From Agromyces italicus DSM 16388 (GTDB lineage Bacteria > Actinomycetota > Actinomycetes > Actinomycetales > Microbacteriaceae): a DNA stretch of 64,000 nt. A program made the position numbers and the translations under genes. This document shows, piece by piece, positions 12,532 through 18,503 of this stretch (positions within the stretch are counted from its first letter, which is position 1; each line of letters starts with the position of its first letter). A model generated the notes under the pieces. It made no database searches, was not told the DNA's origin, and saw nothing but the letters and a program-made list of their open reading frames with translations. The stretch spans positions 1-64,000 of the forward strand of contig NZ_ATXF01000012.1 of NCBI RefSeq assembly GCF_000421545.1, given 5' to 3'.

Positions 12532-13457
12532 TCGGCGCCTCCGGCGTTCTGAGGCACGACCTCGGTGCCGATTCCGGACCGGGTGAAGACCTCGAGCAGG
12601 ATCGAGTGCGGCACGCGACCGTCGATGATGGCCGCCTTGGCGACGCCGCCTTCGACGGCGTCGAGGCAGGCGCGCATCTTCGGGATCATGCCCGATTCGA
12701 GGGACGGCAGGAGCGCCGTGAGCTCGGGCACCTCGATGACCGAGACGAGCGAGTCGCGGTTCGGCCAGTCGCGGTAGAGCCCGGCGACGTCGGTGAGGAT
12801 GACGAGCTTCGCCGCACCGAGCGCGACGGCGAGTGCCGCGGCAGCCGAGTCGGCGTTCACGTTGAGCGACTGACCAGGCGTGTCGGCATCGGGTGCGATC
12901 GACGAGACGACGGGGATCCGCCCGGCGTCGAGCTGAGTCTGCACCGCCTCCGGGTCGACCGCGACGACATCGCCGACGAGGCCGAGGTCGATCTCGGCGC
13001 CGTCGACGACGGCCCCGCGCCTGCGGCCGGTGAACAGCCCCGCGTCTTCACCCGAGAGCCCCGCCGCGAGCGGCCCGTGCCCGTTGATCAGCGAGACGAG
13101 CTCGCGATTCACCTGCCCCGAGAGCACCATGCGCACGACGTCCATCGCCTCGGGCGTCGTCACGCGGTACCCGCCGCGGAACTCGCTCTCGATGCCGAGC
13201 CGCTCGAGCATCGACGAGATCTGCGGGCCGCCCCCGTGCACGACGACCGGCTTGATCCCGGCGTAGCGGAGGTACACCATGTCTTCGGCGAAGGCGCGCT
13301 GCAGCTCGGGGCTGACCATCGCGTTGCCGCCGAATTTCACCACGATCGTCTCGCCGTGGAAACGCTGAAGCCACGGCAGCGACTCGATGAGCACCCGTGC
13401 CTTCTCGGCGGCGAGGTCGGCGCCCGAGCCCGAGGCATCCGTTTCGATGTCGCTCAT
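12528..13457 (-). CDS. argB: Acetylglutamate kinase
   Basis: Phosphorylates N-acetylglutamate; amino-acid kinase fold, 309 aa, usually arginine-feedback inhibited in organisms that use the ArgJ cycle. KFGGN at residues 41-45 and the glycine loop HGGGPQI at 74-80 bind ATP and substrate. It lies 2 bp after argJ and overlaps argD by 4 bp. Confidence 0.97.
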
Positions 13458-13459
13458 GC

Positions 13460-14617
13460 TCAGCTCGCGTAGGCGCTGTTCTCATGCACGTAGTCGTGCG
13501 TGAGGTCGTTGGTGAGAATCGTCGCGGATGCCTCGCCCGCGTGCAACTCGACGAGCACGTGCGTGGCCCGGGGTGCGAGGTCGACCTCGTCACGAGGACG
13601 GTCGGGACGGCCGGCGTGGCACACCCGCACCCCGTTCATCGACACATCGACGAGATAGGGGTCGAACGGGGCCCGCGTGGTGCCGATCGCGGCGAGCACC
13701 CGGCCCCAGTTGGGGTCGTTGCCGAAGATCGCCGCCTTGAAGAGGTTGTTGCGGGCGACCGAACGGCCGACCTCGACGGCGTCGTCTTCGGTTTGTGCGC
13801 CGCGCACCTCGATCGTGATGTCGTGGCTCGCACCCTCGGCATCGGCCTGGAGCTGCGCTGCGAGGTCGAGGCAGGCGGCGGTGAGCGCCTCGGTGAAGGC
13901 CGCTTCGTCGGGCACGACGCCCGAGGCGCCGCTCGCAAGGATAGTCACCTGGTCGTTCGTCGACATGCAGCCGTCGGAGTCGAGGCGGTCGAAGCTGACG
14001 CGGGTCGCCTGCCGCAGCGCGCGGTCGAGCGCGGATGCCTCGAGCTCGGCATCGGTCGTGATGACGACGAGCATCGTGGCGAGTCCGGGCGCGAGCATGC
14101 CCGCACCCTTCGCGATGCCGCCGATGCGCCACCCCGCACCCTCGACGAGGACGGTCTTCGGCTTGGTGTCGGTCGTCATGATCGCTCGGGCCGCATCTTC
14201 ACCGGCGGCGGCGTCCGCCGAAAGCCGGTTCGCGGCGCTCAGCACGCCCTCCTCCAGGATCTCACCGTCGAGCTGGTCGCCGATGAGCCCCGTCGAGCAG
14301 ACGAGGACGTCGCCGGCCGAGACCTCGAGCGCCGACGCGGCCGCCTCGGCGGTGCGGTGCGTGACCTGGAACCCCTCAGGGCCGGTGAAGCAGTTCGCCC
14401 CGCCCGAGTTGAGCACGATCGCCGCGACCTGGCCGTCGGCGATGGCCTGCCGCGACCAGATGATCGGGTTCGCCTGCGCGCGGTTCGAGGTGAACACCGC
14501 GGCCGCCTGCTGCGACGGCCCGCGGTTCACAATCAGGGCGAGGTCGAGCGCCCCGGTGCGCTTGATGCCGGCGGCGATGCCGGCGGCTTCGAATCCGGCG
14601 GGGGCGGTGACGGTCAC
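13460..14617 (-). CDS. argJ: Glutamate N-acetyltransferase / amino-acid acetyltransferase
   Basis: Transfers acetyl from acetylornithine to glutamate, closing the acetyl cycle; in some organisms it also uses acetyl-CoA. The 385-aa precursor cleaves itself before a nucleophilic Thr. The site is visible as [14 protein letters not shown], cut between Ala180 and Thr181. The start is GTG at 14617, which overlaps the argC TGA (GTGA) and has GGAG 7 nt upstream. The much longer upstream open frame is a shadow of argC. Confidence 0.96.
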
Positions 14618-15657
14618 GGTGCGACTCCGTTCACGGGAAGGCCGGTCGACTCGGTGAGGCCGAGCGCGAGATTCGCCGACTGGATGGCGGCACCCGCGGT
14701 GCCCTTGACGAGATTGTCGACCGCGGTCACGATGACGACGCGACCCGCGCGCTCGTCGACTGCGAGGCCCATGAGGGCGGTGTTGGCGCCGAGCACGTCG
14801 GCGGTGCGCGGGAACTGGCCCTCGGGCAGCAGCTGCACGAAGCGCTCCCCCGCGTACGCGTCCTCCCAGGCGGCGCGCACGGTCTTCGCGTCGGTGCCGG
14901 GCATGATGCGCGCGGTCGACGTCGCGAGGATGCCGCGCGACATCGGCACGATCACGGGGGTGAACGAAATGGTCGGGTTCGCCGCGCCGGCCCAGCGGAG
15001 CGCCTGCTGGATCTCGGGGATGTGCCGGTGCACCCCGCCCACCGAGTACGGGTTCGCCGAACCCAGGATCTCGGCGCCGAGCAGGTGGGCCTTCAGGCTC
15101 TTGCCGGCACCGGACGGCCCGACGGCGAGCACCGACACGAGATCGCGGTCCTCGATGACGCCGGCGCGGATGCCGGGGGCGAGCGACAGCGCGACGGTCG
15201 AGGCGTTGCAGCCCGGTGCGGCGATGCGGCGCGACTTCGCCAGCCGGTCGCGCTGGGTGCTCGAGAGTCGCGGCAGCTCGGGAACACCGTACGTCCACGC
15301 GGAGTGGAAGTCGCCGCCGTAGAACGCCGCCCAGTCGTCGGCGCGCTCGAGCCGGTGGTCGGCGCCGCAGTCGATGACGAGCGTCTCGGGCGGGAGCTCG
15401 GCCGCGATCGCGCCCGAGGCGCCGTGCGGGAGCGCGAGGAAGACGACGTCGTGGCCCGCGAGGGTCGCAGCGCTCGTCTCCTGGAGGGTGAGGTGCGTGT
15501 AGGTGCGCAGGTGCGGTTGCACCGCGACGAGCGGCTGGCCGGCGTTCGAGTGCGCGGTCACGGTGCGGACCTCGAACTCGGGGTGATCGGCGAGCAGCCG
15601 CAGGATCTCTCCTCCGGCATAGCCGGACGCGCCGGAAACGGCGACGGAGTACGTCAT
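14614..15657 (-). CDS. argC: N-acetyl-gamma-glutamyl-phosphate reductase
   Basis: NADPH-dependent reductase for the third arginine step, 347 aa. The N-terminal nucleotide-binding motif is [11 protein letters not shown] and the catalytic Cys lies in [12 protein letters not shown] at 15657 is preferred to an in-frame GTG at 15666 because AAGGTGG sits at proper spacing before the ATG. It is the first structural gene of argCJBDFH and is preceded by an Arg-rich leader ORF and alternative RNA stems. Confidence 0.96.
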
Positions 15658-15683
15658 GGAATCCACCTTAGGGTCTGTCTGGT

Positions 15684-15742
15684 CGGGGCGATGTTCCGGC
15701 GACGCCCCGCGACAGGCCGCTACGCCTGTGCAGGGGTCGCCG
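15684..15742 (-). promoter_or_regulatory. Mutually exclusive stems between arg leader ORF and argC (putative attenuator)
   Basis: Stem 1 pairs CGGCGACCCC (complement 15733-15742, inside the last leader codons) with GGGGC-GTCGCCG (complement 15697-15708): 11 bp with one bulged base. It encloses ACAGGC/GCCTGT (15712-15729), whose loop holds the leader stop codon. Stem 2 pairs CGGGGCG (complement 15703-15709) with CGCCCCG (complement 15684-15690), 7 bp with a 12-nt loop. The GGGGC(G) segment belongs to both, so only one stem can form. A ribosome at the leader stop would cover the left arm of stem 1 and favour stem 2. Stem 2 lacks a U-tract, so whether it acts on transcription or translation is unclear. 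Confidence 0.55.
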
Positions 15743-15827
15743 AGATTCGGCGGCCGCCACGGCGTCGGCTGCGCACGACCGGGACACGCGAGACGCGTGC
15801 AGCGGCGACGAACCGGGTGATGGACAT
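15720..15827 (-). CDS. Arg-rich leader peptide upstream of argC (putative)
   Basis: A 35-codon ORF beginning [15 protein letters not shown] and ending SATPAQA, stop TAG. Nine of 35 residues are Arg, clustered in the run RSRRRGGRR at residues 19-27. The ATG lies 6 nt after a -10 (TATGGT) with no ribosome-binding site, which fits a leaderless mRNA. The stop is 62 nt before the argC ATG. Position, composition and the competing downstream stems are those expected of an arginine-sensing attenuator peptide. I see no homology to a named family. Confidence 0.6.
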
Positions 15828-15833
15828 GGATCG

Positions 15834-15863
15834 ACCATATCGGCGGGGCGCGGCGAGGTGCAA
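15834..15863 (-). promoter_or_regulatory. Putative arg operon promoter
   Basis: TTGCAC (complement 15858-15863), 18-nt spacer, TATGGT (complement 15834-15839). The predicted start of transcription falls at or next to the leader ATG (15827). An imperfect palindrome ATATGG-TCGAT-CCATGT overlaps the -10 and the leader start (about 15824-15840) and could bind a repressor, but it does not resemble an ARG box I recognise. Confidence 0.45.
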
Positions 15864-15890
15864 ACCGGCGGGGCGCTGTGCGTCGGAATG

Positions 15891-15929
15891 CGACGACGGC
15901 GCCGCGCGGTATGCGCGGCGCCGTCGTCG
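15891..15929 (-). terminator. pheST terminator hairpin
   Basis: Perfect 17-bp stem with a 5-nt loop, 48 bp downstream of the pheT stop and just before the arg promoter. It lacks a U-tract but is one of the strongest hairpins in the window. It should separate pheST from the arg operon, although these loci are neighbours in most actinobacteria. Confidence 0.75.
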
Positions 15930-15977
15930 GCGCTCGGTACTCGGGTGACGGGCGCCGGGTACTCGGAGCCGAGGAAC

Positions 15978-18503
15978 TCAGTCGCGGATCGACGCGCCCG
16001 TGCGCTCGGCCGCGAGGGCCGCACCGGCGAGCTTCGCCTCGCTGGCCTCGGCCGCGGTGAGCGTGCGATCGGCGGCGCGGAAGCGCAGCGCGAACGTCAG
16101 ACTCTTCGAACCCGCCGGCACACCCTGCCCGCGGTAGTCGTCGACCAGTCCGAGGTGCTCGAGCAGTTCGCCCGCGCCCTCGCGCACCGCGGCGGCGACC
16201 TCGGCAGCCGGCACGCCGACGTCGACGAGCACCGACAGGTCTTGCGTCGCGGCGGGGAACGTGCCGGTCGGCGACGCCTCGACCGCGGGGTCGGCGGCGG
16301 CGATCACGGCATCGAGGTCGAGCTCGGCGACCGCGACCACGCGCGGCAGGTCGTGCTCCTCGGCGAGCGCCGGCAGCAGCTCGCCGGCGAAGCCGACCAC
16401 CCGCCCGCCGATGCGCAGTTCGGCCGTGCGACCCGGATGCAGCGCCTGGTGCGCACCCTGCACGATCTCGAGCTCGGCGCCCGTCGCGAGGGCGACCCGG
16501 CGCACCGCGTCGAGCGCGTCGACGATGCCGACCGGCTCAGCCGGCTGACCCGGCTGCTTCGCGATCCGCTCGCCCACGAGCAGCACACCGAGGTGGCGCG
16601 GCTGCGGCGGGATGCCCGCGTCGAGCGCGGCGAGCGTCTCGTCGCTCGGCTTCGCGTCGCCGACCGGGAGCTCGGCTGAGCCGTAGGCGCGGCCGGGCTC
16701 GGGGAGGAAGACGAGTCCGAGTTCGAACAGGTCGACGTCGACGAGCCCGCGCGAACGGTTGCGCTTCGCCGCGGCCATCAGGCCCGGCAGGAGCGAACGA
16801 CGCAGGTACGGCGTCGACTGGTCGAGGGCGTTCGCGAGGCGCACGGAGGCCACGGGCGACCCGTCGGCGCTGCCGAATCGGGCATTCTCGGACTCGGTCG
16901 CGAACGGGAAGCTCAGCACCTCGGTCGACCCCGAGCCCGCGAGCACGTCGGCGGTCTGCCTGCGGAGACGCTGCGAGCGCGTGAGTCCGCGCCCGGGAGG
17001 CGCGACCGGCAGCACCGAGGGGATGCGGTGGTAGCCGACGAGCCGGGCGACCTCTTCGGCGAGCTCCTCTCGACCGGTGAGGTCGGGGCGCCACGCGGGG
17101 GGCGTGACCGAGAAGCCGCCGTCGACGCGCGTGAGCACGCCGCCGATCTCTGCGAGCGCGTCGTGCACCTCGTCGTTCGTGTACGCGACGCCGATGATGC
17201 GCGAGACGAAGCCGTCGGGCAGCACGATCGCGTCGCGCGCCGGCGTCGTCTGGATGAGAGAACCGCCCGTGTCGGCCGTGCCGCCCGCGAGATCTACCAT
17301 GAGCTGGGCGACGCGTGCGACTGCGACGGCCCCGATGGTCGGGTCGATGCCGCGCTCGTAGCGCTTCGCCGCCTCGCTCGGCAGCTTGTGCCGACGGGCC
17401 GTGCGCGCGATCGACACCGGATCCCAGTGGGCGGCCTCGATGAGCACGTTCGCCGTGGTGTCGCCCATCTCGGTCTCGGCGCCGCCCATGACGCCCGCGA
17501 GGCCGATCGGGCCGCGGTCGTCGGTCACCACGATATCTTCGGCGTGGAGCGTGCGCTCCTTGCCGTCGAGGGTCGTGAAGCGCTCACCCTGCTCGGCGCG
17601 CCGTACGACGATGCCGCCGCGAAGCGCATCGAGGTCGTAGCCGTGGATCGGCTGCCCGAGTTCGAGCATGACGTAGTTCGTGATGTCGACGAGCACCGAC
17701 AGCGAGCGGATGCCGGCGAGCTTCAACCGAGCGATCATCCACGCAGGGGTCGGCTTCGAGGCGTCGAGGTTGCGCACGATGCGCGTCGCGAACGCGTTCG
17801 AGGCGAGCTTTCCGCGCAGCGGCGCCCGGTCGTCGATCACGACCGAGAAGCCATCGGCCGAGGCATCCGTGGCGGGGGTCTGCTCGACGGGGTCGCGGAA
17901 GACCGCACCCGTCGCATGCGCGTACTCGCGCGCCACTCCGCGGATCGAGAACGCGTAGCCGCGGTCGGGCGTGACGTTGATCTCGATCGCGGCGTCGTCG
18001 AGGCCGAGGAGCGAGATCGCGTCGCTGCCGACCGGCGCGTCGAGCCCCAGGGCCGCCAGGCGCAGGATGCCGTCGTGCTCGTCGCCGAGGCCGAGCTCGC
18101 GCGCCGAGGCGATCATGCCGTCGGAGACGTGCCCGTACGTCTTGCGCGCGGCGATCGGGAAGGGCCCCGGCAGCACTGCGCCAGGGAGCGTGACGACGAC
18201 CTTGTCGCCGACGAAGAAGTTGCGCGCGCCGCAGACGATGCCGCGTACGGCATCTCCGCCGTCTGCCGCCCGCTCGCCGTCGGGCGCGACGCGCACCCGG
18301 CACCAGCGGATCGTCTTGCCGTTCGTCTGGGGCTCTTCGACGAACTCGAGCACCTCGCCGACGACGATGGGGCCCTGAAGCTCGAAGGTGTGCACGTCCT
18401 CCTCTTCGAGGCCGACCTTCACGAGGGCGGCGTGGACGTCTTCGGGCGTCGTGCCCGGCACGAGCTCGACGTACTCGGCGAGCCAGCTGAGAGGTACTCG
18501 CAT
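15978..18503 (-). CDS. pheT: Phenylalanyl-tRNA synthetase beta subunit
   Basis: Beta chain of the (alpha-beta)2 class II synthetase for Phe, 841 aa. The N-terminal [12 protein letters not shown] leads into the OB-fold tRNA-binding domain (about residues 42-155), the B3/B4 editing domain and the B5 domain. The C-terminal FDX-ACB anticodon-binding domain begins near [18 protein letters not shown] (about 745-840). It lies 3 bp after pheS in the same operon. Confidence 0.97.

Follow-up and report, generated by a model that had tools for sequence, protein, structure and literature searches.

Arginine biosynthesis is the textbook case of repressor control, and the locus described here raises the question of whether a translating ribosome could take the repressor's place. 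On the minus strand of the window (the whole stretch of 64,000 nucleotides from Agromyces italicus DSM 16388 that was analysed), an Arg-rich ORF that reads as leaderless stands ahead of argC in an argC-argJ-argB-argD-argF-argH operon (argJ to argH named by eye from the ORF translations), in which an ATGA overlap joins argF and argH. The host genome measures 3.73 Mb. Relatives of argC are present in all 60 Agromyces genomes, and the closest named relatives of the window argC, with identity up to 93%, are Agromyces. A sequence-only reading had proposed that this leader works by ribosome-mediated attenuation, with two competing stems downstream of its Arg codons. We consider it likely that the leader is an arginine-responsive, ribosome-mediated attenuator that heads the arg operon and acts from a leaderless mRNA.

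The anatomy proposed earlier agrees with the window sequence in most particulars (Table 1). The leader starts 6 nt past a -10, its 35 codons include nine for Arg (residues 5, 11, 14, 19, 21, 22, 23, 26 and 27) and its stop lies 62 nt ahead of argC; the count of seven Arg in residues 19-27 was wrong, the peptide having six there. To this we add a -35 element, separated from the -10 by an 18-nt spacer. Both stems are present (15741-15733 with 15706-15698, and 15708-15703 with 15690-15685), and they overlap and are therefore mutually exclusive.

Table 1. Features of the argC leader region, in window coordinates
Feature	Position	Strand	Basis or remark
-35 element TTGCAC of leader promoter	15858..15863	-	window sequence
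-10 element TATGGT	15834..15839	-	6 nt ahead of leader ATG; leaderless mRNA inferred
leader ORF, 35 codons, 9 Arg	15720..15827	-	ATG 15827-15825, stop TAG 15722-15720
hairpin 0, CACGCG(TCT)CGCGTG, within leader	15785..15799	-	possible pause hairpin
Arg triplet CGA CGC CGT (R21-R23), proposed sensor codons	15759..15767	-	Arg kept in relatives
region 1, CGC CGA (R26-R27); pairing with region 2 possible (stem A)	15747..15752	-	codons kept in relatives
region 2, GGCGACCCC, left arm of stem B (stem 1 of the sequence-only reading)	15733..15741	-	GGCG invariant; covaries with region 3
region 3, GGCGTCGCC, right arm of stem B	15698..15706	-	covariation; duplex energy
region 4, CGCCCC, right arm of stem 2 (with 15708-15703)	15685..15690	-	C-rich, G-poor segment
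SD-like AAGGTGGA of argC	15662..15669	-	AAGG, GAGG, AGGA or GGAG motif
argC, first gene of argCJBDFH	14614..15657	-	PF01118 match; ATG 15657-15655

The comparison with relatives that had been proposed as a check came out in favour of the element, with frame, Arg codons and stem 1 all conserved across Microbacteriaceae. An Arg-rich ORF (7-10 Arg) located 6-7 nt past a TANNNT was found upstream of argC in 50 of 50 Agromyces regions read, which came from 50 out of the 60 genomes with argC and included the window's own. For the rest of the family we took one genome from each of 68 of the 81 other genera with argC; the 13 left out had the weakest argC matches and so were more distant genera. A strict leader rule demanded a TANNNT, a gap of 5-9 nt to a start codon, an ORF between 10 and 60 aa long and no fewer than four Arg within nine codons; it found the leader upstream of argC in 37 of the 68 genera, compared with 4/68 on the reverse strand and 0-1/68 in ten rounds of dinucleotide shuffles. 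R1, a covariance model of the leader core, matched 39/68 at E<=0.01, all on the argC strand, with some of the 68 genera having members in R1's own alignment. Thirty-five genera were common to the two methods, and 41/68 carried the leader by either. Named carriers are Leifsonia, Mycetocola, Okibacterium, Labedella, Schumannella, Amnibacterium, Frigoribacterium and Microbacterium; no leader was found upstream of argC in the records examined from Leucobacter, Rathayibacter, Glaciibacter and Naasia. At 26 argC loci from other families of the order (argC starts set by motif, some a few codons off, and L271 with only 108 nt upstream), the strict rule and R1 each found a leader upstream of argC in 0/26, and the one R1 match lay elsewhere, in L282. 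On a quick-method argC tree of 58 named loci and 2 outgroup rows, which had 22 of 57 inner branches open and took in 8 of the 30 named Agromyces and two of the five outgroup rows planned, the leader label needs four changes, and the Rathayibacter group falls outside the leader-bearing group.

Prevalence was taken from the argC-upstream regions because weak genome-wide R1 matches resemble GC-rich noise; the search over whole genomes (138/199 at E<=0.1) was rejected as a measure for that reason. Further weak R1 matches away from argC in several Microbacteriaceae (e.g. G199, G113 and G255) are probably such noise. Rfam gave eight weak matches at E<=10 in window positions 13000-17000, none of them over the leader, and no match at the gathering score in six relatives. 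By sequence comparison, the leader upstream of argC is a real and conserved element.

We removed 28 of 113 leader-bearing loci as identical. Among the 85 non-redundant relatives, TTG lies 16-19 nt upstream of the -10 in 72, with a spacer of 18 in 63, and at control spacers of 22-25 it was found in 0/85. All but one of the 85, or 84, have a -10-to-start gap of 6 or 7 nt, although their selection already demanded a TANNNT 4-11 nt ahead of the start. The full -35/-10/start arrangement is mostly a trait of Agromyces (47/47, compared with 19/33 others and 17/39 genera). From this spacing, the mRNA probably begins at the leader start codon. Five of 52 non-redundant Agromyces (L009, L011, L026, L099 and L112) carry one or two extra tandem region 3-4 units in the leader, each ending with an ACC-AGGT hairpin-like motif, and were left out of alignments and statistics.

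In most counts the leader was taken as the Arg-richest candidate at each locus, so the agreement of frame in 80/80 cores and the gap lengths in multiples of three (10/10 in 47 Agromyces) are largely built in. An independent test placed starts by TANNNT plus 5-8 nt alone, blind to Arg, ORF and frame. Such starts exist in 37 of the 39 genera located by the RNA model alone and in 79 of the 80 cores, and were in frame with the Arg codons in every case (37/37 and 79/79). When a -35 was also required, starts remained in frame in 17/17 genera and 66/66 cores; their smaller number shows that the -35 is less widely kept. Counting upstream from region 2, Arg occupies positions -26, -23, -20, -11 and -8 in 67, 75, 61, 71 and 80 of the 80 cores. 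The codon at -8 is CGA in 80/80 and that at -11 is CGC in 71/80, and the triplet at -26, -23 and -20 varies at third positions among relatives. CGA, which the inosine tRNA reads poorly, accounts for 148 of the 407 Arg codons found within 30 nt upstream of region 2 compared to 5 of 156 in six window genes, a small background. Across the Arg run of the 47 Agromyces, the non-consensus fraction was 0.012, 0.079 and 0.167 at codon positions 1, 2 and 3, and across codons 2-20 it was 0.262, 0.220 and 0.158. The higher variation at positions 1 and 2 in codons 2-20 indicates that the peptide as such is unconserved there. The leader stop begins either 2 nt before region 2 (31/80) or 16-28 nt past the region 2 start (49/80). 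This pattern of substitution and framing is indirect evidence that the leader ORF is translated.

Stem B joins GGCGAC... of region 2 to ...GTCGCC of region 3. In the 53 of 80 cores on which alignment A1 and model R1 were built, 89.5% of stem B cells are paired, and GGCG of region 2 and CGC of the arms are invariant. Eighteen cells changed on both sides, compared with a shuffle mean of 6.6, and the covariation score was reached in 0/500 shuffles; the number of pairs with two-sided changes (four) was reached by 118/500. Sliding the 3' arm to -3 as a control gave a covariation of 0.153 vs 0.165, with 18 two-sided cells each and 67.3% of cells paired. On the 39 genera aligned to R1, 90.3% of cells were paired with 16 two-sided cells, 0/500 shuffles reached the covariation score (106/500 for the pair number) and slid controls gave at most 0.116; this alignment leans toward R1, and kinship alone can exceed shuffles without structure. 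Duplex energies, computed on 44 of the 80 cores, were better than shuffles at p<=0.05 for regions 2:3 in 32/44, for 3:4 in 10/44, for 1:2 in 9/44 and for the control pairing 2:4 in 3/44. Stem A (1:2) was dropped as a general element on this count. The same fate met stem 2 (3:4) as a general attenuator hairpin, which stood above shuffles in 2/19 Agromyces and 8/25 others, in a test whose dinucleotide shuffles keep C-richness, possibly the signal itself. By eye the 3:4 hairpin is clear in the window, L034, L076 and L078. The GGGGCG/CGCCCC stem proposed earlier is strong in the window's clade, and across the leaders as a whole 3:4 pairing does not generally rise above chance.

Within the leader ORF lies a further small hairpin, hairpin 0, for which 33 distinct segments from Agromyces gave 176/198 paired cells, whereas shuffles averaged 170 and reached at most 176. 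Its folding energies are mostly unremarkable. It recurs with other letters in Microbacterium (GACGCTCG-TTC-CGAGCGTC) and others, and the shortest leaders are without it. It could be a polymerase pause hairpin, for which the pairing counts are suggestive only.

Compared with shuffles, the leader RNA of the window by itself shows only moderately better folding (z -2.2), and in the ribosome-free window transcript stem B has a probability of 0.90-0.91. Stem 1 therefore has no need of a stalled ribosome in order to form. We folded the RNA 3' of a ribosome placed along the leader in the same 44 cores, masking to 15 nt from the P-site codon and excluding pseudoknots. With the leading edge just ahead of region 2, the mean stem B probability was 0.76, and it was at least 0.5 in 34/44; in the other 10 (L023, L032, L092, L122, L034, L038, L041, L047, L062 and L078) it was below 0.5 even when region 2 was spared. 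Once region 2 was covered, the probability was 0.00, by construction, and the expected number of 3:4 pairs rose from 1.3 to 3.6. In most rows, the last ribosome position sparing region 2 placed Arg codons of the triplet within the five codons up to the A site. The claim that the downstream stem depends on ribosome position was thus borne out in computation, the stem being spared at the Arg triplet and lost when covered. It is in the model that folding of stem B depends on the stall.

The Arg-rich leader and the conserved hairpin together are probably a ribosome-read arginine sensor. Transcription would start at the leader AUG, and because the mRNA would start there, a 70S ribosome would begin at the 5' end without a Shine-Dalgarno (SD) sequence. 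At low levels of charged tRNA-Arg, the ribosome would stall at the Arg triplet, which often includes a slow CGA; its leading edge would stay off region 2, stem B would be kept and argC would be expressed. With plentiful arginine, the ribosome would pass CGC-CGA to the stop and cover region 2; stem B would be lost, region 3 freed, and operon expression would fall. We infer the sign, with stem B as the ON state, from physiology, since genes for making arginine are expected to be active during arginine shortage.

The classical form of attenuation is strained on two counts. Stem B also folds with no ribosome present, which means that a leader left untranslated would signal low arginine, and a U-tract is absent. 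The earlier remark that no U-tract follows stem 2 agrees with the occurrence of TTTT between stem B and argC in only 1/80 leader-bearing copies and with the lack of any terminator-like site at 15600-16000 of the window. Of the ribosome-mediated attenuation proposed at the outset, the leaderless Arg-rich leader and the position-dependent stem stand, as predicted from sequence and folding. The putative output, at transcription or at translation, may be Rho-dependent or U-less termination with the 3:4 hairpin, or ribosome loading on argC. Rut sites are C-rich and G-poor, as is region 4; a simple rut model through region 4 was rejected as having the wrong sign, because region 4 is free in the presumed ON state. 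Sequestration of the SD, of the LEU type in which the codon run pairs with it, was also rejected as the output, the computed accessibility being unchanged between the states.

A reading that shares the sensor and differs in its output is control of translation, in which stem B would keep a C-rich ribosome landing site free before argC, its loss would fold region 3 onto that site, and any loss of mRNA would be secondary. We regard this as possible though rather doubtful. An SD-like motif precedes argC in 35/37 genera with the leader vs 12/31 without it, the distance from region 3 to the argC ATG is 36-43 nt in 73/80 copies, and the segment between stem B and argC has more C than G in 80/80 leader-bearing copies vs 10/31 genera without the leader; the rise in 3:4 pairs when region 2 is covered points the same way. 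Against it, neither the argC SD (0.56 in the stalled state vs 0.57 in the moved-on state, p 0.6) nor region 4 (0.56 vs 0.54) changed significantly in computed accessibility. The tight spacing and the C-rich, G-poor stretch suggest a readout near argC initiation or through Rho, in a segment whose own folding is unchanged. A second leaderless promoter (TAAGGT, 7 nt before the ATG) could instead drive argC and make the leader marginal, a reading we find unlikely. TAAGGTGGATTCC-ATG is spaced like a -10, and a TANNNT occurs at -10 spacing in 27/37 genera with the leader and 24/31 without it. The form TAGNNT, however, is found in 17/31 genera without the leader and in only 1/37 with it, where the common part is the SD-like motif; some copies, among them L212, L214, L235, L241 and L242, are without TANNNT yet keep AAGG or GAGG, and no -35 is apparent upstream by eye. 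Genera without the leader (e.g. L207, L223, L240 and L246) often have a TAGATTTGACGC-like sequence directly before the argC ATG, and in these genera, for which neither ArgR nor leader was found, argC itself seems to be leaderless.

Two other readings dispense with the codons as sensor. The Arg-rich peptide itself might stall the ribosome in response to arginine, as do fungal AAP and SpeFL, and the strict distance at which the Arg run is kept from region 2 would fit this. The C-termini differ, however, ending at RRL or continuing as ISATPAAA and similar; these differences, the two places of the stop relative to region 2 and the freer variation at positions 1 and 2 in the first 20 codons indicate that codons, not peptide, look selected, and we hold peptide sensing to be very unlikely. 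Alternatively, the element might be a plain structured RNA that binds a protein or small molecule and whose GC-rich arms read as Arg by chance, since CG-rich arms easily yield CGN codons and both arm motifs, GGCG and CGC, never vary in the 53 sequences. This is the least probable of the readings considered. It is at odds with the promoter-defined starts, which fall in frame throughout, with variation in the Arg run at codon position 3 and not 1, and with a CGA at -8 that is invariant even in leaders ending in TAGGCG, its A being unpartnered in stem A. An arginine-responsive attenuator that reads Arg codons accounts for these observations in our preferred view.

The distribution of ArgR bears on why such a leader would be there. 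The ArgR N-domain (PF01316) was found in 0/199 Microbacteriaceae genomes of 85 genera and in 0/37 Agromyces, compared with 23/23 genomes of other families. The C-domain (PF02863) was present in 110/111 genomes of other families of the order, the one miss being a 0.8-Mb genome, and in 0/8 Microbacteriaceae. In other families of the order (G060, G064 and G067), a distance of 5.3-5.6 kb separates the argC start from the ArgR gene downstream, which places that gene at approximately the spot where argF ends in the window (15657 to 10388). Outgroup argC starts are preceded by sequences such as TGTATAGTTATGCAC, which we take to resemble a -10 overlapping an ARG-box half. In L269-L294 of these families, the argC -10 (TATAGT or TATGGT) lies within a TGTATAGTTATGCA-like sequence 20-40 nt before argC, perhaps an ArgR box over a leaderless promoter. 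The ancestral argC would then have been leaderless and controlled by ArgR, with ArgR disappearing no later than the base of the family; some of its members would afterwards have gained the leader promoter and attenuator, followed by losses, as in Leucobacter. The leader would do ArgR's job in part of Microbacteriaceae only, and is not obligatory, since neither leader nor ArgR was found in 27/68 genera. We lean, by a little over even chances, to the full account in which the family lost ArgR and part of it built a leaderless-mRNA attenuator whose invariant CGA and Arg triplet gate a covarying stem, with a readout independent of any intrinsic terminator. If true, arginine would join the leader-peptide attenuators, attenuation would be shown without a 5' UTR ahead of the leader, and a family in which no ArgR was found, and in which 41 of the 68 sampled genera yielded the leader while 27 did not, would constitute a natural experiment. 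The leader would also be a clean system for learning about U-tract-free attenuation in Actinobacteria.

Parts of this arrangement are known from other systems. In mycobacteria, leaderless polycysteine sORFs are described as attenuating through ribosome speed and Cys supply (Canestrari et al. 2020, as presented in PMC9031893 and PMC9094748). The argC leader shares with them a leaderless uORF, a run of codons for one amino acid and an actinobacterial host; unlike them, it has Arg codons rather than contiguous Cys, a covarying stem at a fixed distance behind the codons, and a family in which no ArgR was found. Salmonella orf34-speF (PMC6386406) resembles the proposed argC switch in that its leader ORF holds Arg codons in a row, a ribosome that pauses when arginine is low selects an alternative RNA structure, and no intrinsic terminator was found, Rho acting in orf34-speF. 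Peculiar to orf34-speF are an ORF with a Shine-Dalgarno sequence, a polyamine gene, a speF start at nt 516, the conserved peptide domain DUF2618 (PF10940), an ornithine response and RNase G; by eye, the HIRRT core quoted in that source is absent from the leader peptides here. The trp, ilv and leu attenuators predicted in Actinobacteria (Seliverstov et al. 2005, PMC1262725) likewise combine a run of product codons with mutually exclusive stems, but the trp attenuators end in a hairpin with a U-tract, none of which was found at the argC leader, and the passages available name none for arginine among the predicted attenuators. In Staphylococcus aureus rbfL (PMC13009471), a uORF with Arg codons senses arginine limitation by pausing, as proposed for the argC leader, but there the pause obstructs the following RBS and so reduces a biofilm regulator rather than acting on arginine biosynthesis. 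ArgR and the ARG boxes of Streptomyces do the same job, arginine control of arginine genes, but through a protein repressor. The combination of a leaderless mRNA with an arginine-sensing uORF was absent from the passages of PMC1262725, PMC13009471, PMC4633059, PMC9094748, PMC6386406 and PMC9031893. Among the matches listed from openly licensed papers (titles and abstract starts), none described a bacterial arginine-biosynthesis attenuator, and among those listed from the openly licensed literature, none joined Microbacteriaceae, ArgR and arginine in one paper; as the scope was openly licensed papers only, this speaks only weakly for a true absence.

The stretch that separates pheT from the leader promoter (pheS and pheT were both identified by eye) contains, at positions 15891-15929, a GC-rich inverted repeat whose arms match perfectly over 17 bp around a loop of 5 nt and which is without a U-tract. 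It is perhaps a candidate pheST terminator, and as such gives a hint that U-less terminators are in use at this locus.
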